This document shows positions 1,985 through 50,823 of a DNA stretch of 51,124 nucleotides, one piece after another (within the stretch, counting starts at the first letter, position 1; every line of letters starts with the position of its first letter). The notes under the pieces were generated by a model, which made no database searches, was not told the DNA's origin, and saw only the letters and a program-made list of their open reading frames with translations. The stretch lies in IMG/VR virus record IMGVR_UViG_3300044703_000055, positions 1-51,124 of that record, one strand, 5' to 3'. Both the position numbers and the translations under genes were made by a program. The DNA is from a virus.

Positions 1985-2037
<53 letters not shown>

Positions 2038-2169: not shown

Positions 2170-3357
2170 GTGCCTAGAATACCTTTTTCGGATGCCGGAC
2201 TCAGAAGCTTAAAACCGCCCCCCACCGGTCAGCTTGATTATTGGGATAGCAAGCTACCCGCGTTCGGTTGCCGCGTCTCGCAGGGAGGCGCTAAGACGTT
2301 CGTACTCAAACGGCAGAATACCCGCATTACCCTCGGTAGGTATGGCATTCTGAGCCTCTCGGAAGCCCGTTCAGAAGCGCGCCGGATGCTTGCCGAGTTC
2401 ACCCTTGGCAAAGTCAGACCCCAATCCATTACCTACCCCGAAGCCGTCCGGCTGTTCATCGAGGATAAGAAGCGCAACCGCCGCCTTTCGACCGCTGAAC
2501 AGTACGAATGGTTCCTCGGTCGCCTTAAGTTCGGGCAGCTTGCCGACATCCGGCCGGATGACCTTTCGCGGCAGCTCGCCAAGGTAAAGTCCCGCAGCAC
2601 CTATGATCACGTTTTGGTTGCGGCACGGATCTTCTTCAATTGGTGCATGAAGCGGCAGTACACCAGCCAAAACCCCACCTTTGGCCTGTCCCCCCATGGG
2701 ACGGAGAAGCGCGCTCGCGTACTTTCCGATCAGGAGTTACAATGTATTTGGCGAGCTTGTGAGGGTGTAACGGTACAAACGCCTAATCCGACGCTGGAAA
2801 GCGCTCAAGAGAATATCGGAAGATTGCCCGCACACTTCGCCACAATCGTTAAACTTTTAATACTTACAGGTGCTCGCAGGGGAGAGATCGCGGCACTCCA
2901 AAATTCATGGATAGACTTTCAAAACTCATCGCTTACGTTTCCCGCGTCTATTACAAAGAATGGGCGCGAACACACTATTCCACTGCCTGCAACATTTGCG
3001 CAGCTCGTCACCCCGACAGACCTGACTACATCCCCCGCGCTCATTTTCCCAGCACGGGGCAAGGCGAATACGCCCTTCAATGGTTGGTCAAAGAGCAAAG
3101 CCGCCCTCGATAAACTTTCCGGCGTCACCGGCTGGACTTTGCACGATCTCCGCAGAACGTACCGCAGCACCCTTGGCCGCTTAGGGGTTCGATCTGATAT
3201 TGCAGAACGGTTGGTCAATCACATATCCGCCCGCTCGGAGATGGAAATCACCTATGACCGGTACACCTACATGCCCGAAATGCGCGAGGCGGTAGCAAAG
3301 TACGAAGCTCATCTTTCACGCCTGTTCGGCGCGCCCCAAAAATCTTTGGCTGCGTGA
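2170..3357 (+). CDS. int: tyrosine recombinase/integrase (P4-like)
   Basis: 395 residues with a GTG start. The N-terminus resembles the DUF4102 arm-binding domain (YWDSKLPAFGCRVSQGG, ITLGRYGILSLSEAR). A SAM-like core-binding domain follows at about 85-170, and the catalytic domain at about 180-375. Visible catalytic elements are the first Arg in GARRGEI (~236), Lys in ITKNGREH, HDLRRTYRS (His ~324, Arg ~327), a second His in LVNHIS, and the nucleophile Tyr in ITYDRYTY (~362). It sits next to the left attachment repeat and should catalyse integration and excision at the tRNA-Ala site. The start codon is uncertain because no strong ribosome-binding site is visible. Confidence 0.93.
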   Translation: MPRIPFSDAGLRSLKPPPTGQLDYWDSKLPAFGCRVSQGGAKTFVLKRQNTRITLGRYGILSLSEARSEARRMLAEFTLGKVRPQSITYPEAVRLFIEDKKRNRRLSTAEQYEWFLGRLKFGQLADIRPDDLSRQLAKVKSRSTYDHVLVAARIFFNWCMKRQYTSQNPTFGLSPHGTEKRARVLSDQELQCIWRACEGVTVQTPNPTLESAQENIGRLPAHFATIVKLLILTGARRGEIAALQNSWIDFQNSSLTFPASITKNGREHTIPLPATFAQLVTPTDLTTSPALIFPARGKANTPFNGWSKSKAALDKLSGVTGWTLHDLRRTYRSTLGRLGVRSDIAERLVNHISARSEMEITYDRYTYMPEMREAVAKYEAHLSRLFGAPQKSLAA

Positions 3358-3461: not shown

Positions 3462-3680
3462 ATGACAGTCGAGAAATTGCTAGTGACGAGGAACGAGTGC
3501 CGACAGATGGGGCTCAAATACTCTTCGATGCAGTTTTTGCGATGGGAGAAGATGGAACTGCTGACTCCAATAAAGCCAGCGGGCCGCTATTCCCGCGTAC
3601 ACTACCGTATCGAGCAGGTGAAAGCCCTCATTGAGGCGCGAGCCTCGCAGGTGAAGCCGACCGCAAGGAAAGCTGCTTAA
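3462..3680 (+). CDS. small excisionase-like DNA-binding protein
   Basis: A 72-residue basic protein starting at ATG after AAGGAG. The pattern LLVTRNECRQMGLKYSSMQFLRWEK followed by GRYSRVHYRIEQVKALIEARA (each quoted in part) fits the winged-helix of AlpA/MerR/excisionase proteins: helix-turn-helix, beta wing, then recognition of the next residues. It lies directly downstream of the integrase on the same strand, which supports a role in excision directionality. A transcriptional regulator is the alternative. Confidence 0.6.
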   Translation: MTVEKLLVTRNECRQMGLKYSSMQFLRWEKMELLTPIKPAGRYSRVHYRIEQVKALIEARASQVKPTARKAA

Positions 3681-3690
3681 AGGGCACAGA

Positions 3691-3721
3691 GGGGCCGCCG
3701 GGTGCACACCGGCGGCCCCTT
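3691..3721 (+). terminator. strong hairpin after the excisionase-like gene
   Basis: An 11-bp perfect GC-rich stem (GGGGCCGCCGG paired with CCGGCGGCCCC) with a short loop follows the stop codon at 3680. Only two T residues follow, so termination efficiency is uncertain. Confidence 0.6.
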
Positions 3722-3736
3722 CACCGGGGGGGTCGC

Positions 3737-4909
3737 TTGGTCTCGTTCCAAGAATTCATCTCAGATTATCCATCATTCTTTGCTGAATGGCAGGTAGCCA
3801 ATCGCCACAAGATCTATTTCTTCCTCGTTTGCGACGCGCTTATCTTTGTTGGCTTTCTTACCGCATTCGCAATTAGGCGAAATCACGACACACCGACAAA
3901 ACGCATAAAGACGATCATAGAAAATTTTTTCGGACTCGTTGTCGTTATGCCCGCCATCTGCATTTTCTTGGAGTCATTTCGCGGCTGGATTGCTCCAACT
4001 TACCCGCAACTATCTTTCTACATCCTATTCGCTCCCTTCGTGATATTTCTCATTGCTCTGGTGATATATTTCGCCGTCATGTTTTATAAGAACCAAAAGA
4101 TTAGATTATCCGGCCCGTGGAACGGCGTTTCTCGCAATCATTTCTCGGTCTCTCGAAAACCTCCACCGCCATCTAGACAGTCCACGCAACCCCAGGCGCA
4201 AACGATGACAAATGCACCGCAACACACCGAGGCTCGAACTCCGCAAACGGGCATGAAGCCAATTCGCGACCCTACTGACCTGAAGCCGCTTTCCGATACG
4301 CTATTTGAGTTTGGTGGTAGTTATATTGTTCTCAGCATTCTAGTCGGTCTTTGCATCATCAACGTGATCGGAATCGCTCTTGATCCCTTTATGCACACCA
4401 TTCTTGCGGCCCTATTTGGCGTCGGCGCTTTCATATATTGGAACTGGCATCAACGTCCGCGCACGATCGTTAGCGCCACCAAACCGCCCGACACCGCACC
4501 GATCGCGAAACCAGTAAGCGGGAATATGCGAGTTGATTTCCAACGCCGAGAAGTTGTTCGCAAACAAAAGACCGGCGGGCTTTCCTCCGTGACCTACAAC
4601 ACCTTTGAGCTAATCATCCAGGTTCAGTTCAGCGAAACCGCTCTGAAGATAATCCATCACGCTAATTTAATGCCATATACCCTATCAAAATATGCAGCCA
4701 GCATGTTCGATTTCACATTGGAACACAAGTACGATCCGCCTATCGTTGTCGCGGACCTTGTCGGCAAACCGCTCGTTATCATTCGCGACTCTCTGCCGGA
4801 ACTTAACACCATGGAAAGCCAATTGCGGGAAGCGCTAAAGACTTTGAACGAGGCGATTAAAACGGCCGGTGAGACACAGACAACCGCTCGGGAGACGTTT
4901 GAGCTATGA
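3737..4909 (+). CDS. multi-pass membrane protein, partner of the coupling ATPase
   Basis: About 390 residues starting at TTG (no ATG is available; GGGGGG precedes it). Hydrophobic segments are visible at about residues 24-46, 62-80, 92-117 and a pair around 195-240. A Pro/Gln-rich linker (RKPPPPSRQSTQPQAQ) separates the first group from the second. The C-terminal ~130 residues look soluble and mixed alpha/beta. Its stop overlaps the start of the coupling-protein gene in an ATGA, so the two are translationally coupled. I infer it supplies the membrane anchor that the downstream ATPase largely lacks. No family recognised with confidence. Confidence 0.65.
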   Translation: MVSFQEFISDYPSFFAEWQVANRHKIYFFLVCDALIFVGFLTAFAIRRNHDTPTKRIKTIIENFFGLVVVMPAICIFLESFRGWIAPTYPQLSFYILFAPFVIFLIALVIYFAVMFYKNQKIRLSGPWNGVSRNHFSVSRKPPPPSRQSTQPQAQTMTNAPQHTEARTPQTGMKPIRDPTDLKPLSDTLFEFGGSYIVLSILVGLCIINVIGIALDPFMHTILAALFGVGAFIYWNWHQRPRTIVSATKPPDTAPIAKPVSGNMRVDFQRREVVRKQKTGGLSSVTYNTFELIIQVQFSETALKIIHHANLMPYTLSKYAASMFDFTLEHKYDPPIVVADLVGKPLVIIRDSLPELNTMESQLREALKTLNEAIKTAGETQTTARETFEL

Positions 4910-7047
4910 GCAGGCTGCCCACATTGTGGGACGCTGTTATCGACGAAATGCCCAGGAGCCGGCACAGCCGCACCTGGACAGGATTCGCCGGGGCTGTCGG
5001 GGGACTTGTTGTACTCTCACCGTTTTTGGCCGCGAGTGCTGTAGCGCGAGAACTGCTGGCTCCAAATCCCAACGATACGGACATCAACCGCCAACTCAGG
5101 ACGTTGAGCGGAGATAGCGAAGGCCTCCACCGGATAGCGCAACAGATTGCCTCAACGATTTCCTACCCGTCTCCCGAAGAATTTCTACGTCTGGTGCTCA
5201 GCGCATGCATCGACCGACTGATTGCGGAGAACTGTTCGCCACCGCCCACGTCCGTATTCGATGCCTTCTCAGACATAGTAATCGGATTGTACGACTTACC
5301 TGAACTAGCCGTTCCTCCACCACGGCCCCCTGATATTCTTCTCCACACGATTGATGGCGCACGCTGGCGTGATGCAACACGTGTCTATATCTCCCACTTC
5401 TCCAATCCCCACCTTCTGCTAACACTTACGGCCGCCGCGTTCCTGGAAAGCCTCTATGAATTCATCCGAGCACTTCCTCCGTCGATACTTATTTCATGGG
5501 ATGAATTTGCTGAAGAATGGGACGACCTGCCGCCCACTTCATTTCGGGTCCCATTGACTGATGTAACCGGTCATCCCGGTTCACTAATCACGACAATCCT
5601 TCTACCTTTCTATTCCCCTGGCGTTGTAGACAATGACTTGTTCGTGCGGCTCCGCGCGCACATGAATGAACGCGTAGACCAAATCGGCTATATGCCTGAA
5701 AACTATCGCGGCAGCCCCGCGGAGGTGCTCGATACTTATGTAGCCCGAACCCCATTTGAGCGGGTTTTTTCGGCGGAAGTACCCCTGCAACTGCCGCAAG
5801 AACAGCGCTTCGCAGGTCACTGGATCATCGCCCCCGCCGGTCGTGGCAAGACTACCCTTCTGCATAAGATGTTCCTGGACGATCTCAAGCGAGAAGCTTC
5901 TATCGTCATTATCGATTCTAAAGGAGAGCTGATCGAGCCGATAAAGAACTTGCGAGCCATATCTGACCGCCTCGTATTGGTTGAACCGGACGAGCATTTT
6001 CCCTTGGCTCTCAATCCCCTAGACATTCCCAATGCCGGGGTGATGCAGACGATCGCGCTCATCGAGTACGTAATGTCTGCGCTTTTGGAAGCTAAGTTCA
6101 CGCCACTTCAATCGGCGCTCTTCAGAAACGTCATTCCGGCGATAGTCGAGGCAATTCCCAACGCAACACTCGACACCTTCAAAGCGGTGATCACGAGCGG
6201 CTTTGAGCCATTCCAGGAGCACTTCTCACGCCTTAGTGCGCGGACCCAAGCGTTCTTTCTCGACAAGCAAAATGGGTTCGCGTCGAAAACGTATGCCGAA
6301 ACGCGCAACCAGATCATCTGGCGGCTCGACTATTTAATGACGAACCCTGTCATGCGAGCAATGTTCGCCGCCGCGAAGACGAAGCTCGATCTGGGAAAGG
6401 AGATGGATGCTGGCAAAATTATAATTATCAATAACTCAAAGGCGCTCCTCACAGACGAAGGCGCGGAATTCTTCGGGCGGTTCTTCATTGCTCTTATCCT
6501 TGCCGCCGCCCAGCAGCGCGCCTCCCGAAGACCCGCCGATAAGCTGCCGTGCTACGTTTATATAGACGAGTGCCACAATGTGATCGCCCGCGATCTGAAA
6601 ATCCCAACCATCCTTGATGAGTGTCGATCGCAAAAAATCGCCCTGATCATGGCCCATCAGCGGACCGCGCAATTAACCGCCCCCGTGCTCGATGCCGTCG
6701 CTAACTGTGCTATCCGTATGGCGAATAGTGACGATGAGGCGAAATATCTCGCAGATAAGCTTCGCACGAGCACCGAGGCCATCCGCGTTTTGCCGCGGGG
6801 CACCTTCGCGACGTTTGTGCGCGATCTGACGCCAACCGCGCTTGCCCTTAAGATTCCGCGCGTAGATCTGACCGCCCTGCCGCAGATATCGGCCCAGCAA
6901 CGCTCTGTGATACATGAACGTATGCGCCAAGAATTCGGTTATTCGCCTGTGAACCTACCTCTGACCACGAGTTCTGCGGTCTCTCATGATATCGAACATC
7001 CGACTGAGCCTGCGCGAACATTCGGGCCGAAGTCGTGGGGAGCATGA
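4906..7047 (+). CDS. VirD4/TraG-type coupling-protein ATPase (HerA/FtsK superfamily)
   Basis: 713 residues. Walker A is APAGRGKTTLL (~309-318) and Walker B is CYVYIDECHN (~549-558). Further hallmarks are DSKGELIEP after strand 2, ALNPLDIPN, and a sensor/arginine region AHQRTAQL followed by ANSDDEAKYLADKL. These match type IV coupling proteins, which pump DNA through membranes using ATP. The ~300-residue N-terminal part is helical with only one hydrophobic stretch (~25-48), unlike the two-helix anchor of classical VirD4. The start overlaps the upstream membrane gene. No relaxase or mating-pair genes are nearby, so it may serve a partial transfer system, a defence role or DNA handling in the phage cycle. 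Confidence 0.85.
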   Translation: MSRLPTLWDAVIDEMPRSRHSRTWTGFAGAVGGLVVLSPFLAASAVARELLAPNPNDTDINRQLRTLSGDSEGLHRIAQQIASTISYPSPEEFLRLVLSACIDRLIAENCSPPPTSVFDAFSDIVIGLYDLPELAVPPPRPPDILLHTIDGARWRDATRVYISHFSNPHLLLTLTAAAFLESLYEFIRALPPSILISWDEFAEEWDDLPPTSFRVPLTDVTGHPGSLITTILLPFYSPGVVDNDLFVRLRAHMNERVDQIGYMPENYRGSPAEVLDTYVARTPFERVFSAEVPLQLPQEQRFAGHWIIAPAGRGKTTLLHKMFLDDLKREASIVIIDSKGELIEPIKNLRAISDRLVLVEPDEHFPLALNPLDIPNAGVMQTIALIEYVMSALLEAKFTPLQSALFRNVIPAIVEAIPNATLDTFKAVITSGFEPFQEHFSRLSARTQAFFLDKQNGFASKTYAETRNQIIWRLDYLMTNPVMRAMFAAAKTKLDLGKEMDAGKIIIINNSKALLTDEGAEFFGRFFIALILAAAQQRASRRPADKLPCYVYIDECHNVIARDLKIPTILDECRSQKIALIMAHQRTAQLTAPVLDAVANCAIRMANSDDEAKYLADKLRTSTEAIRVLPRGTFATFVRDLTPTALALKIPRVDLTALPQISAQQRSVIHERMRQEFGYSPVNLPLTTSSAVSHDIEHPTEPARTFGPKSWGA

Positions 7048-7057
7048 TAAACTTTTA

Positions 7058-7089
7058 GTGAGCTATCCACTTCCTATAACATAGCTCAC
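7058..7089. promoter_or_regulatory. perfect 9-bp inverted repeat upstream of the Replic_Relax-like gene
   Basis: GTGAGCTAT at 7058-7066 and ATAGCTCAC at 7081-7089 are perfect complements separated by 14 bases. It lies 45 bp before the next start codon and has no T-run, so an operator or mRNA hairpin is more likely than a terminator. The repressor or other factor that would bind is unknown. Confidence 0.45.
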
Positions 7090-7133
7090 CCGACGTTTTT
7101 CTGCCGGTTCGCTGAATCGGCTACCTTTCACAT

Positions 7134-7958
7134 ATGGATTACACACCACGGTGGCAGCGCAATCTTCCAGCGAAGCGCAAATATCGCCTGACCTTCAACG
7201 AGGGCGATCTTGAAATCTGCAATCTGTTGTCGCCCACACGTGCGCCATGGGGCTATCAGTATTTGCCGTCCGGCTACTTTCCGGCGCTTTTAAACCGTCG
7301 CGAGGGGATGAAGGATCGGCTGGGTCCGCTTTCGCGCCCCCCGAATACGTACCTCAAAATCCCCGAACAGCCGCACAACAACTACCGTGACCTGATCTAT
7401 TCGCTCGATTCAAAAGGCGCGGACGAGCTGAGGGAGGCCGGGCACACCGTCCCGCGCCTGCACCTACGCAAGCTTCCGCACGAGCTTATGGCTTGCTGTA
7501 TCGGCGCTTCATTCGAGATCGGTGCCACCAAACACGAGCTGCCGATCACCATTCATACCGTATCGAACGACTTCTACCCCGACTGGCCGGTGTTCTCCCT
7601 TGCAGGCTCCCCGCCGATTTACATCGAAGCCGACCTTGCGACGGAAACGCTCGACACCCGCAAGGCTGACGCCACGAGCATTGCCGGGAAATTCGTCGAA
7701 TACATCAAGCTCCTGGAGAAAGAGGACATCATTGTCCTTTTCATAACGACCCGGGACACGCGCCGCGATTCGATGGCTGGGCTCCTCGGATCAACGCTTA
7801 AGCCGCACCAACGCGAGATGGCCCGCCATTTCGGGTTCATGTCCATTCAATACGACCGCTTCGTGAACACCATCCCAAAGCTGTCCGATTGGGCGGTCTC
7901 GAGCCGGTACCACCGCGCCATTTTCCCCCACCTGAACCTGCTTGAACGGAGGCTCTAG
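7134..7958 (+). CDS. Replic_Relax-like winged-helix protein
   Basis: 274 residues. The N-terminus (KYRLTFNEGDLEICNLL, then a Leu-rich helix and IYSLDSKGADELREAG) looks like the winged helix of the replication-relaxation family (Pfam Replic_Relax). The C-terminal half has the family hallmark IYIEADLATETLD, then KFVEYIKLLEK and IIVLFITTRDTRRDSM, which resembles the second domain of that family. Such proteins occur on conjugative plasmids and ICEs beside coupling ATPases, as here. Function in this family is poorly defined; DNA binding at an origin or transfer region is my inference. It is followed by a 1-nt overlapping GTG gene. Confidence 0.62.
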   Translation: MDYTPRWQRNLPAKRKYRLTFNEGDLEICNLLSPTRAPWGYQYLPSGYFPALLNRREGMKDRLGPLSRPPNTYLKIPEQPHNNYRDLIYSLDSKGADELREAGHTVPRLHLRKLPHELMACCIGASFEIGATKHELPITIHTVSNDFYPDWPVFSLAGSPPIYIEADLATETLDTRKADATSIAGKFVEYIKLLEKEDIIVLFITTRDTRRDSMAGLLGSTLKPHQREMARHFGFMSIQYDRFVNTIPKLSDWAVSSRYHRAIFPHLNLLERRL

Positions 7959-8119
7959 TGCTCGACAGCAAGCTCGCCCGGCTGAAGGAACTTATCAACG
8001 AAAAGGAGCGGATTGATCGAGAGCTGAGCGTCCTGCTCGGCGAGACGGAGAAGCCGAAGCGCGGGAGGCCAAAAAAAGAGGGCGGCAATGCGCCGCCCTC
8101 GTCGTCTACAGGAGCCTGA
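7958..8119 (+). CDS. coiled-coil mini-protein with AT-hook motif
   Basis: 53 residues starting at GTG 7958, which overlaps the previous stop (TAGTG) and follows GGAGG at a good distance. Residues 1-31 form a charged helix (KLARLKELINEKERIDREL) likely to be a coiled coil. Residues 32-41 (KPKRGRPKK) contain the GRP core of an AT-hook, which binds the minor groove of AT-rich DNA. The tail is GGNAPPSSS. Coupling to the Replic_Relax-like gene suggests a shared DNA-bound function. The 3' end overlaps the terminator of the opposing gene. Confidence 0.68.
   Translation: MLDSKLARLKELINEKERIDRELSVLLGETEKPKRGRPKKEGGNAPPSSSTGA
8071..8100 (-). terminator. rho-independent terminator of the minus-strand gene 8123-8380
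   Basis: A perfect 9-bp stem (GAGGGCGGC/GCCGCCCTC, 8078-8100) with a 5-nt loop. Read on the minus strand it is followed by seven T residues (8071-8077). The same bases encode the last codons of the converging AT-hook gene. Confidence 0.85.
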
Positions 8120-8122
8120 AAG

Positions 8123-8380
8123 CTATTCGTCGTGGATCGGCTCGTCTTCCTCGACGAACGGCGGCACCAGGACCATCGCGCCGTTCCAGCCGCTAATGGG
8201 CAAGGTGTTGAGCTTCACGGTGAAGCCGGGTTCTCCGTTCTTTCGTGCGAATGCAACACCGACGGGGCTCCAGTCGCGCGCGCCAGGTCCCGTTTTCGCC
8301 CGAACATAGAACGCGATTTCCCGCCGCTCCGCAGTCTGCTGCCGCCGCGTGCGCGGATCGGCACGTTCAGTGATCGACAT
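8123..8380 (-). CDS. small conserved-looking protein of unknown function
   Basis: 85 residues, with ATG at 8380 preceded by AAGGAG at 6 bp. The sequence has AFYVRAKTG, PVGVAFARKNGEPGFTVKLN, LPISGWNGAMVLVPPF and an acidic end. I recall similar short proteins ending in a GF.lKLnalP...G...L.PP-type pattern on alphaproteobacterial plasmids and ICEs, but cannot name a family. It has its own terminator and is transcribed against its neighbours, diverging from the primase-like gene. Confidence 0.65.
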   Translation of the reverse strand: MSITERADPRTRRQQTAERREIAFYVRAKTGPGARDWSPVGVAFARKNGEPGFTVKLNTLPISGWNGAMVLVPPFVEEDEPIHDE

Positions 8381-8519
8381 CACCAGCTCCTTCGTGAGGC
8401 ATGATTGCCGTCATTGATTATAACAGGGAATTATTTGCTGTAACCGTGAGCTGTGCTCGACAACGTGATTGTTTGTTTGGATGTACAATTGGCAGCAGGC
8501 GACTACAAAGGAGCTTGCC

Positions 8520-9310
8520 ATGTTCATCGACTTTCAGCAGTTAAAAGCCGAGCTGTCCATTGAGCGTGCCGTGCAATTGCTCGGGCTCACTCTGCCCAAG
8601 AAGAACGGCGACCAGCTCCGCGGCCCTGCCCTTTCTGTAAGGCCGGCGGCGAGCGAGCGTTGGCGGTCAATCTGAACAAAGGTGCGTTCTATTGCTTCTC
8701 GGCAGGCAAAGGCGGCGACGTTATCGCCCTAGCCGCGCACGTCCTCGGCTACACCGGCGACACTGCCCAGAGGCAAGCAGCGGAATTTCTCACCGGGAAC
8801 GGTTCACAATCCACCGTTCACCGTGAGACACGTCCCCCCAGCTCCGCCGAAGGTTCCGGTGGAAGCAGGCGTGGGCAGGGTTTCGATGCCGAGGCTTATG
8901 CCAAGCGTCTCGATCCTGCCCACGACAATCTCAAAGCCCTCGATGTTTCACCGGAAACGCTCACGGCTCTGAAGGCAGGGTACGCCTCGGCCGGCGTCAT
9001 GCGCGGCAGGCTCGCCCTCCCCCTGCATAAGGGACAGGAGATCGTCGGCTACTTCGGCCTGGCGATCGGGGACGCTCAGCCAACCTTGCTCTTTCCCACC
9101 AACCTCCAGCCTGCCGATTACATCTTCAACTCGGGGAATGTCGCAGGCGGAGAACTCATGCTGCTTCGCGATCCGCTTTCTGTAGTGCGGGCGCACGAAG
9201 CCGGGATCAATGCCGTCTGCTTCTTAACGGAAGGATTGACGGCGCTTCAGCTCGAAAGTCTTGCAGCCGTGATGAGCACGGCTGGCGCTGAGACAATCGA
9301 GATCACGTAA
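8520..9310 (+). pseudogene. CHC2-zinc-finger/primase-like gene broken by a one-base frameshift
   Basis: The ATG at 8520 follows AAGGAG. The first frame encodes MFIDFQQLKAELSIERAVQL up to GDQLRG. Coding then continues in the -1 frame from 8627 as CPFCKAGGERALAVNLNKG, FYCFSAGKGGDVIALAAHVLG, the CxxC and C.gg.GGD signature of a primase-type CHC2 zinc finger (its usual fourth ligand appears to be Ser). Exactly one base is missing between 8624 and 8627. The downstream ~200 residues (LPLHKGQEIVGYFGLAIG, LLFPTNLQPADYIFN) look like the start of a Toprim-type domain but end early for a full primase. It is either a true pseudogene or a sequencing indel; no classical slippery site is present. Confidence 0.75.
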
Positions 9311-9661: not shown

Positions 9662-9706
9662 GTCATGAGACAATTACGAGCGGGCTCTTTCACAAGGAGA
9701 ACGCTC

Positions 9707-10570
9707 GTGCGCACACAGGACCTCTATCAGAAAGTTACGAACGACATCATCAAGGAGCTGGAAGCCGGCACTATTCCATGGGTTCAGCCGTGGAAGAATA
9801 ATAGCCGGCACGTCGGCATCATGCCGGTCAACGTAGCAACCGGAAGAAGCTACTCGGGCATCAATATCCCGATTCTCTGGCACTCCCAAAGGATGCAGGG
9901 CTTTCCCGAGCCAGCATGGATGACCTTCCAACAAGCACTCCACCTCGGGGCGCATGTGCGGAAGGGGGAGAAAGGCACGACGGTCGTGTTCACCAAGCCA
10001 CTCATCTTCAAGGGCGAGGACAACGAGGAACACCGCAAAGGTTCGATGCTCAAATCCTTTACGGCATTCAATATCGCGCAGATCGACGAGCTGCCGGAGA
10101 CGGTCAACGCGCCGATCGCGCCGCCTCCGCAGGGCGCCGTACAGAGCTTCGTGGACGCTACCAAGGCCGACATCCGCTTCGGCGGGAATAAGGCGTGCTA
10201 CGTCCCGTCGCTCGACTTCGTATCAATGCCCGCTACGGAGCAGTTCGCGAGCCTGGACCATTTCCATGCGACCGAGCTGCACGAGCTGGTGCATTGGAGC
10301 GGCGCGAAGTCCCGGCTTGATCGGGATCTGAGCGGCCGATTCCGAACCCGCGCATATGCAGCCGAGGAGCTGATCGCCGAATTCGGGGCAGCATTCCTCT
10401 GCGCGCACCTGGGGGTAACCGGCAGGCTCCGGCACGCCGATTACATCGCGAACTGGCTCGAACTCTTGCGTCACGACGATCGCGCGGTCTTTACGGCCGC
10501 ATCCCGCGCCTCACAAGCCGCTGACTACCTTCGGGCATTCAGGGAGTACAAGGAGGCGGTGTCATGCTGA
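9707..10570 (+). CDS. ardC: ArdC-type antirestriction protein with zincin domain
   Basis: 287 residues from a GTG at 9707 placed after AAGGAG; an upstream in-frame ATG at 9665 overlaps a terminator T-run and is less likely. The N-terminal ssDNA-binding domain shows DLYQKVTNDIIKELEAG, IPWVQPW, GINIPILW and GAHVRKGEKGTTVVF. The C-terminal metallopeptidase domain has ATELHELVHWSG (HExxH at ~192-196) and AEELIAEFGAAFL with the third ligand Glu. ArdC proteins protect incoming conjugative or phage DNA from restriction. The stop overlaps the next gene (ATG at 10564). Presence here supports a DNA-transfer role of the left arm. Confidence 0.9.
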   Translation: MRTQDLYQKVTNDIIKELEAGTIPWVQPWKNNSRHVGIMPVNVATGRSYSGINIPILWHSQRMQGFPEPAWMTFQQALHLGAHVRKGEKGTTVVFTKPLIFKGEDNEEHRKGSMLKSFTAFNIAQIDELPETVNAPIAPPPQGAVQSFVDATKADIRFGGNKACYVPSLDFVSMPATEQFASLDHFHATELHELVHWSGAKSRLDRDLSGRFRTRAYAAEELIAEFGAAFLCAHLGVTGRLRHADYIANWLELLRHDDRAVFTAASRASQAADYLRAFREYKEAVSC

Positions 10571-34726: not shown

Positions 34727-36565
34727 TCAGGGGAGCATCCGAGCAACTCGAAACCCGACATCGTCCACACGATCTTCGGCGCTACCATCATGGCGCACTT
34801 TAGTAATATGTGGAGGCATGCGGAATGAGCCCCCTCGGCGCATTCGCTTGGTGCAGTCTCCAGTTAGCCAGGCCGAGCCATCCGTCGGAGCGCCGTCATA
34901 ATTCTTGTTCCCGCAGTGCTCTGTGATTTCCCAAGTATTGCCGTACATATCATAAAGGCCGAACCCGTTGGCCGAGAAGCTACCGATCGGCGATGTATAC
35001 TCAAATCCATCCCGGCGAAACTTTGCCGGATTTCCCTCAGAATCTTTCATTTGTCCGAAAATCGCTTTGGCTCGGCCGTAGTTCGCCGCCTCATCAAAAG
35101 TGTTGCCGTGTGAACAGATTTTCTCCCAAATTTCCGCATAGCTATCACCAAAGGAAACTCTAGTTTGTGCTCCGGCACGAGCTGCATACTCCCATTCGGC
35201 CTCGCTTAAAAGGCGGTACTGTTTCCCGGATTTCCTCTCTAGCCAAGCCGCATATGCCTTGGCATCGTACCAATTGATGCAAGCTACGGGATGTGATCCG
35301 CGGTGTGGATAGCCAGGACTCCGCCAGGAATGCCCAGTTTTCTCAAACCACGGTAGCATGCTAGTTTCGGGTTTTTCCTGCTTATGCGCGTCGTACATCA
35401 CCGCATCGAAGACAAAGCACTTACCGCCAGGATTATACCCAGTTTCTGTGACAAATGCGGCAAATTGATCGACTGTTATTTCGAAGCGACCTACTGCAAA
35501 CGATTTGGGTATAGTAACTCGATGCTGGGGAATGTGGGCATCGTCTTCGCTCCACCCATTGCGGTCAACGGCAATCCCCATCAGGTATGAACCTGCTGGT
35601 AGTACTACCATCTCAGGACATTCGTCACACTCTTTGAACATGTCCCTCGGCTTAAGCGCGCGCTCTTGCGCGGCATCGAGAGGGCGATGAAAAAGGCCCA
35701 AGGCCGGTTTTGTGCTCTCTGGAGGAGCTATAGTTCCTGCCCCGAGCGGTAAGCCTGCCAAGTAAATATCATCTCCGATGATTTGATCGTAGTAAGCGGG
35801 AGACTGTTCATGTGCCACCGACTCAGCCATCTTAAACACAACGCCACGTGTTTGAGTTATTACCCCTCGTAGACCGAGACCAGGGGTCTTTAGTTTCTCC
35901 GCGAACACACGCGTGAAAACCGAGTTGGGATTGCCGTCACCTGTAATATTATCAAGCGCGATTTGACCGAGCCCCGCTGAATAGATTGAGAACACCCCTT
36001 GGGGAGGTTGGCTTGGGGACAATCCCCGTGAATCTCCCAAGCTACGGCGGTTGCCAACTTGTAGCGGATTATTACGGCAAGCGTCCAAGACAACAATTGC
36101 AACACGAGCCCCCGCTCTGGTCATACGTTCAATCACTGAGGTTTCAGCTATGGCATGTTCAGCCATGCGGCTTTCCTCCGCAGGACCACTGCCTCGGGGA
36201 GAGGGAATATCGCTCGGGAGAAGATAATTTGCTCCGTGGAATGACACGCCGTGTCCCGCGAAGAAGAACATGGCCGTATCGCCTTTCTCAATACGCCCTG
36301 CAAAAGTGGTTAGCCTGTCAAGAAATTTGGAGCGGTCAACGTTGGTATCGAAGATGATATCCTCGTTACGGAACCCGATGCCCCTCAACGTGTCTTTTAT
36401 TAAACGCGCATCATTGATCGCATTATAGAGCTGCCCGCCGGCTATATTGGCGTAGCTATTAACCCCGATCACTAGCGCGACGCGCTTTTCGGCGAACGCT
36501 GGGGAATTGAAAGCAGCAGCTACGAATAGGCCAGCCAATGCTACGAATGCCCTTAGTGTGCGCAT
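34727..36565 (-). CDS. secreted caspase-domain/formylglycine-generating-enzyme-like fusion
   Basis: 612 residues from ATG at 36565 (an upstream in-frame start at 36616 is less likely because the signal peptide MRTLRAFVALAGLFVAA.. begins here). Caspase p20-like domain ~27-285: RVALVIGVNSYAN, FFFAGHGVSFH with catalytic His105, and VLDACRNNPL with Cys163. C-terminal domain ~310-612 is SUMF1/FGE-type: MVVLPAGSYLMGIAVDRNG, HRVTIPKSFAVGRFEITVDQ, FAAFVTETGYNPG, CINWYDAKAYAAWLERKSGK, YRLLSEAEWEYAARAGA and GFRVARML. Exported; periplasmic peptidase/sensor role likely. Antisense to the phage operon. Confidence 0.85.
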   Translation of the reverse strand: MRTLRAFVALAGLFVAAAFNSPAFAEKRVALVIGVNSYANIAGGQLYNAINDARLIKDTLRGIGFRNEDIIFDTNVDRSKFLDRLTTFAGRIEKGDTAMFFFAGHGVSFHGANYLLPSDIPSPRGSGPAEESRMAEHAIAETSVIERMTRAGARVAIVVLDACRNNPLQVGNRRSLGDSRGLSPSQPPQGVFSIYSAGLGQIALDNITGDGNPNSVFTRVFAEKLKTPGLGLRGVITQTRGVVFKMAESVAHEQSPAYYDQIIGDDIYLAGLPLGAGTIAPPESTKPALGLFHRPLDAAQERALKPRDMFKECDECPEMVVLPAGSYLMGIAVDRNGWSEDDAHIPQHRVTIPKSFAVGRFEITVDQFAAFVTETGYNPGGKCFVFDAVMYDAHKQEKPETSMLPWFEKTGHSWRSPGYPHRGSHPVACINWYDAKAYAAWLERKSGKQYRLLSEAEWEYAARAGAQTRVSFGDSYAEIWEKICSHGNTFDEAANYGRAKAIFGQMKDSEGNPAKFRRDGFEYTSPIGSFSANGFGLYDMYGNTWEITEHCGNKNYDGAPTDGSAWLTGDCTKRMRRGGSFRMPPHITKVRHDGSAEDRVDDVGFRVARMLP

Positions 36566-36616
36566 CCCGATCTTCCCCAAACGACCCTCTACCTCTGGTC
36601 CCCAGAAGCTCGACAA

Positions 36617-50742: not shown

Positions 50743-50823
<81 letters not shown>

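Follow-up and report, generated by a model that had tools for sequence, protein, structure and literature searches.

The window analysed here, IMG/VR virus record IMGVR_UViG_3300044703_000055 in its full length of 51,124 bases, contains a four-gene module, with a conserved core of three genes, organised around a DNA motor. The genes encode, in order, a membrane protein (gene 1), a coupling-protein-like ATPase (gene 2), a Replic_Relax-family protein (gene 3) and a small accessory protein (gene 4), and the module is part of the early left arm of a prophage. It is real and conserved; its parts are of a known kind, while its location in a phage and its extra partner proteins are unusual. We see an even chance that it is a MOBC-like mobilisation unit of a temperate phage, which would nick DNA and feed it into the channel of a helper element. 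An earlier, sequence-only reading had described the same genes as a coupling-ATPase module without a relaxase; gene 3 is now the candidate for that role.

A candidate MOBC-like relaxase

Individual window proteins used as queries matched almost nothing, and profiles were therefore needed: gene 3 as a single protein had no match in IMG/VR, phages or plasmids, and a six-frame search of the window record with PF13814 (Replic_Relax) did not match it. Iterative profiles started from gene 3 and from a RefSeq 'replication-relaxation' protein converged on the same 66 sequences, and gene 3 scores 144 bits against the profile of the converged family. PF13814 is matched by 42 of the 46 aligned members of this family, at best with 3e-20. 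The same Pfam family also holds MOBC relaxases, such as MobC of CloDF13, and MobC of a CloDF13-type, MOBC-typed plasmid matches it at 8.2e-22 (in the record of CloDF13 the mob genes are interrupted, and an intact relative was used for comparison). The absence of a relaxase is thus no longer tenable for the window, nor for related elements, in which a candidate relaxase lies nearby; the sequence-only reading had itself named such a neighbour as evidence against its view.

The AlphaFold2 model of gene 3 (predicted local distance difference test score, pLDDT, 88.8) consists of a winged helix-turn-helix and an alpha-beta-beta-beta-alpha-beta core, with D150 and E165-x-D167 placed on the two central strands, as expected for a PD-(D/E)XK protein. 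The motif residues are strongly conserved in the family: E165 and H116 are found in all 46 members, D150 and Y190 in 45 and D167 in 41. MobC has invariant residues in the same order, namely H114, P147-D148, E161-x-E163 and Y172. MOBC relaxases are described as related to PD-(D/E)XK endonucleases and as having an N-terminal winged helix (PMC12857230). The weak Foldseek matches of the gene 3 model in the PDB include PD-(D/E)XK nucleases and winged helix-turn-helix proteins, and its top viral matches are phage proteins, including gp146 of phage G, which, together with its SPO1 relative, carries the RefSeq label 'replication initiation by nicking'. Homology and predicted fold give the class of the gene 3 protein, and family, fold and motif together suggest that it is a MOBC-like relaxase that would nick DNA.

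The coupling-protein-like ATPase and its membrane partner

Gene 2 belongs to the VirD4/HerA superfamily and is best described as coupling-protein-like, of the TrwB/VirD4 type. It scores 22.7 bits against TrwB_AAD_bind, over the cut-off of 20.5, and 39 of 41 relatives match this model at E<=0.01. The T4SS-DNA_transf and TraG-D_C models are both under cut-off, and DUF87 (HerA) reaches 18.2 bits where 23.2 are required. Invariant in the 41 relatives are G312, G314 and K315 of Walker A, D554-E555, R574, Q585 and Q589, and the ATPase profile matches the MobB family at 90.5%. The structural comparison with VirD4-type, HerA and related motors that had been proposed earlier places the AlphaFold model (pLDDT 85.8) closest to TrwB, the best-matched coupling-protein fold, at a target TM-score of 0.56–0.59; the values are 0.50–0.54 for Cag-beta of H. 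pylori and 0.43–0.50 for HerA. The unusual N-terminus of some 300 residues, noticed earlier, is real: the motor begins near residue 290, and the preceding part is predicted to fold into a helical domain (residues 57–260, mostly with pLDDT above 85) that has no HerA beta-barrel. The N-terminal hydrophobic segment is weak (residues 28–46, score 1.87).

At most related loci the C-terminal domain of gene 1 (approximately residues 256–390) is conserved upstream of the ATPase gene, with a family profile score of 240 bits. It constitutes a distinct conserved family, mostly seen as a stand-alone protein of about 120 residues just 5' of the ATPase gene. The related ATPases occur in a short form, as in the window, and in a long form of at least 800 residues. 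Among 40 short-form ATPase/partner pairs, a hydrophobic segment is present in one or both proteins in 34 (in the ATPase only in 23, in the partner only in 8, in both, as in the window, in 3, and in neither in 6), a tally confounded by host relatedness. The distribution fits a predicted membrane complex. The earlier description of the genes as a module built on a DNA motor, with a VirD4/TraG-like ATPase and a membrane protein as its partner, stands.

Gene layout and the mini-protein

All four genes are present as described, including the overlap between the membrane protein and the ATPase (4 nt, ATGA) and the 1-nt overlap between genes 3 and 4. The GTG start codon of gene 4 shares its first base with the final base of the gene 3 stop codon, TAG, and GGAGG lies just 5' of it. 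Chance open frames are excluded by their lengths of 390, 713 and 274 codons and by the identical order of the first three genes in dozens of other genomes. It is plausible that all four are co-transcribed. The single operon proposed earlier is uncertain because an 86-nt gap with an inverted repeat (7046–7066/7081–7101) and a T-run splits the ATPase from gene 3.

The proposal that the four genes travel as a set held for three of them; gene 4 is outside the conserved core, but its occurrence is non-random. In a search for the AT-hook motif gene 4 appeared to be unique, a result overturned by a similarity search, which found related mini-proteins at the equivalent place in 6 of 71 Replic_Relax loci, with a shared helix and a CCHC zinc knuckle in place of the AT-hook. 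Because these six loci carry relatives after gene 3 with a zinc-knuckle tail, gene 4 is read as a lineage-specific accessory, predicted to bind nucleic acid.

Distribution of the module

The block of membrane or partner gene, ATPase and Replic_Relax gene is conserved mainly in Alphaproteobacteria. A neighbourhood survey, suggested by the sequence-only reading, covered 67 short-form loci: Replic_Relax is directly adjacent to the ATPase in 58, the partner in 53, and both in 46. Separate distribution of the genes, which would have spoken against a functional unit, was not seen in an independent sample either, in which six of seven full-length Replic_Relax genes adjoin the ATPase (the seven exclude one genome already in the first set). 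This second sample of 190 genomes, from the class of one alphaproteobacterial relative, has full-length gene 3 members in 5, or about 3%. One genome carries three copies of the three-gene block alone (L109, L110 and L111; 3.6–3.9 kb, 94–98% identical) in surroundings that otherwise differ, as would be expected of a block that moves or recombines in one piece.

Of 19 long-form ATPases, 18 have the partner and none an adjacent Replic_Relax gene. The long forms (L052, L056, L058, L069–L071, L074, L075, L077, L080–L086) share the upstream partner family, and those tested have no hydrophobic segment; they may represent a separate, soluble variant of the machinery. In L014 (7381–9081), L022 (457–1707), L072 (3438–4760) and some 30 other loci, another coupling-protein-like ATPase, about 400–570 residues long and lacking the N-terminal domain, lies near the module or within several kb of it.

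Three other phages share with the window the order integrase, ATPase, 86-aa gene and primase, and have a Replic_Relax gene at the equivalent place; the late genes of the window have no match in these three phages. Each of the four related virus records has terminases of its own, the types of which differ among the phages carrying the module. Several non-viral loci keep the ATPase, Replic_Relax, 86-aa and primase genes in this order, to which L072 adds the integrase and ArdC; some copies of the three-gene block have integrase, primase, ArdC, RepA or ParA genes in their vicinity. A terminase was found in one of 87 loci searched, with a limited query and limited flanks. In a tree of 85 ATPases, where long branches make exact placement unsure, four phage copies form one supported clade mixed with copies from metagenome bins and the other phage copies lie elsewhere; the module was therefore captured by phages more than once, or has frequently been lost.

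No VirB4, the ATPase of type IV secretion systems (T4SS), was found close to the module in 23 genomes searched. The absence of such an ATPase beside the module is as expected for a mobilisable element. A self-transmissible integrative and conjugative element (ICE) was considered and rejected: such an element would have its own T4SS, and VirB4 (PF03135) has no match in the window, nor in any of five related virus records.

Weighing of the readings

Transfer by a non-canonical initiator, one of the roles suggested earlier, is the idea that best survives these results, in the form of a MOBC-like mobilisation unit. Several observations weigh against it. Gene 3 taken alone scores 13.6 bits against PF13814, where the curated cut-off is 25.3. 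Its direct profile comparison with MobC by hhalign is not significant: H, PD and E-x-E pair with H116, D150 and E165-x-D167, at probabilities of 1.9% and 0.8%. The Foldseek matches of its model in the PDB are weak, with a best E of 0.1. A search for repeats that might mark an origin of transfer identified no such origin and nothing beyond short inverted repeats whose role is unclear; a 12-bp hairpin at 3690–3720 and the repeat at 7046–7101 were the best of these. VirB4 is present in 9 of 30 genomes or records with relatives, never near the module, so that most hosts are without a resident helper. Finally, Replic_Relax-family-like proteins are also found in large lytic Bacillus phages (phage G gp146, at 60–884 of L119, and SPO1 gp27.3), and the gene of phage G has no coupling ATPase next to it.

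The last point leads to the strongest of the alternatives, which we consider unlikely: that replication starts at a phage or plasmid origin nicked by the Replic_Relax protein and the ATPase moves or segregates DNA inside the cell, with no transfer between cells. The nicking label of the SPO1-like protein agrees with this, the conserved block runs on into a CHC2 primase, RepA or ParA lie near some copies, and such Bacillus phage genes were read as plasmid maintenance by their authors (PMC9658697, PMC9703825). However, intracellular replication does not call for a TrwB-like motor tethered to the membrane and paired with a membrane protein, and both the TrwB_AAD_bind match and the gene order are those of mobilisation regions.

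Somewhat less probable still is a role in anti-phage or anti-plasmid defence, in which a HerA-type ATPase and a PD-(D/E)XK nuclease would destroy invading DNA. The fold matches of the ATPase include HerA defence complexes, and the weak matches of gene 3 include the McrC and LmuA nucleases; methylase and restriction genes lie near some module copies, and the distribution is patchy. PADLOC assigns mad8 to the ATPase (1e-8) but gives no match for the other three module genes, partner and nuclease included. The DUF87 score below cut-off, the helical N-terminus in place of a beta-barrel and the commonly predicted membrane anchoring of the short form likewise argue against defence.

We regard it as improbable that motor and membrane partner export DNA by themselves, in the manner of the Thermus TdtA/NurA ICE or of single-ATPase conjugation. 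The proximity of HerA-like fold scores to those of TrwB, the presence of a nuclease partner and an integrase, the lack of VirB4 in most host genomes and the precedent of ICETh1 (PMC5365140) are in favour of such donation, whereas the Thermus system depends on natural competence, outer-envelope components were not found, and the long-form relatives that share the partner gene lack both a membrane segment and Replic_Relax. Help in packaging or ejecting the phage's own DNA, to which the location in a phage and a weak terminase-labelled PHROG match (2.8e-8 over 80 residues) might point, is very improbable, and the ATPase was rejected as a packaging motor: the phage encodes a large and a small terminase subunit and a portal of its own, phages with the module differ in terminase type, and chromosomal and plasmid loci carry it with no detectable phage terminase (phrog_38) nearby.

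A model for MOBC-like mobilisation

In the proposed MOBC-like mobilisation, the winged helix of the gene 3 protein would bind a cognate origin and its PD-(D/E)XK-type centre would nick one strand. The VirD4/TrwB-like ATPase, for which both its own helix and the partner protein would provide a membrane anchor, would receive the nicked DNA and, by analogy with CloDF13 MobB and in keeping with an element that has no VirB4, might dock on the mating channel that a conjugative element in the same cell provides. The AT-hook or zinc-knuckle mini-protein may serve as a lineage-specific accessory of the nicking complex, while the primase and ArdC may convert and protect the entering strand. The excised prophage, or plasmid-like elements with the block, could then spread by mobilisation as well as in virions.

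The closest known counterpart is the MobB-MobC region of CloDF13-type MOBC plasmids. CloDF13 is a mobilisable plasmid with its own coupling protein, the membrane domain of which is essential, and uses the channel of another plasmid (PMC7431656). In four MOBC plasmids the coupling protein is followed by MobC, as the ATPase is followed by Replic_Relax here; a T4SS in cis is not required, both MobC and the gene 3 family match PF13814, and the H, PD, E-x-(E/D) and Y motif is equivalent. The differences are a very low sequence similarity, as the hhalign result indicates, the extra conserved upstream partner and the location of the window module in integrated elements and phages. Streptococcus integrative and mobilisable elements combine an integrase, a PF13814 protein and a VirD4-like coupling protein with no T4SS (PMC5357655, PMC12479173), but are non-phage elements of Firmicutes. 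The plasmid-like gp11-18 block of Bacillus tyroviruses is similar by description, with a T4SS protein (gp17) and a replication-relaxation protein (gp18) beside a tyrosine recombinase in a temperate phage (PMC9703825); it differs in its ParM and RHH partition genes. Thermus ICETh1 is likewise integrated in a tRNA gene and moves DNA out of the cell by a motor of the HerA/VirD4 superfamily (TdtA, HerA-like) and a nuclease, which is NurA-like instead of Replic_Relax; this 14-kb element has no described phage genes. HerA-nuclease defence systems (HerA-Sir2 and relatives) share the pairing of a HerA-superfamily ATPase with an effector and have similar fold scores, in contrast with the TrwB-type profile, helical N-terminus, predicted membrane anchor, predicted winged-helix nuclease partner and absence of a PADLOC system match of the window module.

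The prophage and its left arm

The window represents a siphovirus-like prophage, apparently complete and about 48.8 kb long, that is integrated in a tRNA-Ala gene and bounded by a perfect direct repeat, with PHROGs matches to small and large terminase, portal, head, scaffold, protease, tape measure, minor tail and endolysin. Homologues of its integrase (35–39% identity) occupy the equivalent place in three related phages. The CHC2 primase gene has an apparent single-base frameshift and is intact in related phages; a sequencing error or a decayed gene is possible. A caspase-like peptidase gene (34727–36616, minus strand; PADLOC caspase, 1.9e-13) lies on the strand opposite to the late genes and is followed at 37–50 kb by genes that have no assignment, possibly a lysogen cargo or defence region.

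Features of the left arm and attachment (att) repeats of the prophage. Positions are those of the window; ORF, open reading frame.
Feature	Position	Strand	Remarks
Left att repeat	1985–2037		53 bp, identical to 50743–50795
Tyrosine integrase	2170–3357	+	PF00589, 8.5e-11; phrog_1, 3.1e-48; directly inside left repeat
Small ORF, possible excisionase or DNA-binding protein	3462–3680	+	Suggested by position after integrase; weak PHROG DNA-binding match (0.075)
Gene 1, membrane partner	3737–4909	+	TTG start; 390 aa; four hydrophobic segments (hydropathy)
Gene 2, coupling-protein-like ATPase	4906–7047	+	713 aa; Walker A 309–316; Walker B D554-E555; one N-terminal hydrophobic segment
Gene 3, Replic_Relax-family protein, candidate MOBC-like relaxase	7134–7958	+	274 aa; winged helix and PD-(D/E)XK-type core; D150, E165, D167, H116, Y190
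Gene 4, accessory	7958–8119	+	53 aa; GTG start; helix and AT-hook tail
86-aa conserved protein	8123–8383	-	Member of syntenic block; homologues 39–73% identical in three phages, also in four chromosomal loci
CHC2-type primase gene, split	8520–9310	+	Apparent frameshift near 8610–8640; intact homologue in L002
ArdC-type anti-restriction protein	9665–10570	+	ArdcN, 1.8e-38; MPTase-PolyVal, 4.7e-47 (Pfam); adjoins module in some relatives too
Right att repeat	50743–50795		Overlaps tRNA-Ala (50748–50823, minus strand)

Implications

Phages and conjugative elements are usually regarded as separate routes of transfer, and in one survey a relaxase gene or origin of transfer was lacking from all P1-like phage-plasmids but two (PMC10879196). 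More tentatively than the mobilisation unit itself, we propose as a possibility a family of temperate phages with two routes of spread, by virions and by conjugative mobilisation through a MOBC-like relaxase, a coupling ATPase, a membrane partner and a swappable DNA-binding mini-protein, in which the left arm would constitute the core of a mobilisable element to which unrelated late genes of phages are joined. With a pair of relaxase and coupling-protein genes in an apparently complete prophage, common to phages with other late genes, chromosomal loci and plasmids, dual transfer becomes testable.

A Sulfitobacter plasmid with the full three-gene block (L003) is typed as 'non-mobilizable' by MOB-suite, and current typing therefore misses this family. 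The frequency of the block, about 3% in one sampled class, and its as yet unnamed upstream partner merit a proper family and a mobility-typing rule. Dual transfer, if true, would raise the weight of the finding.

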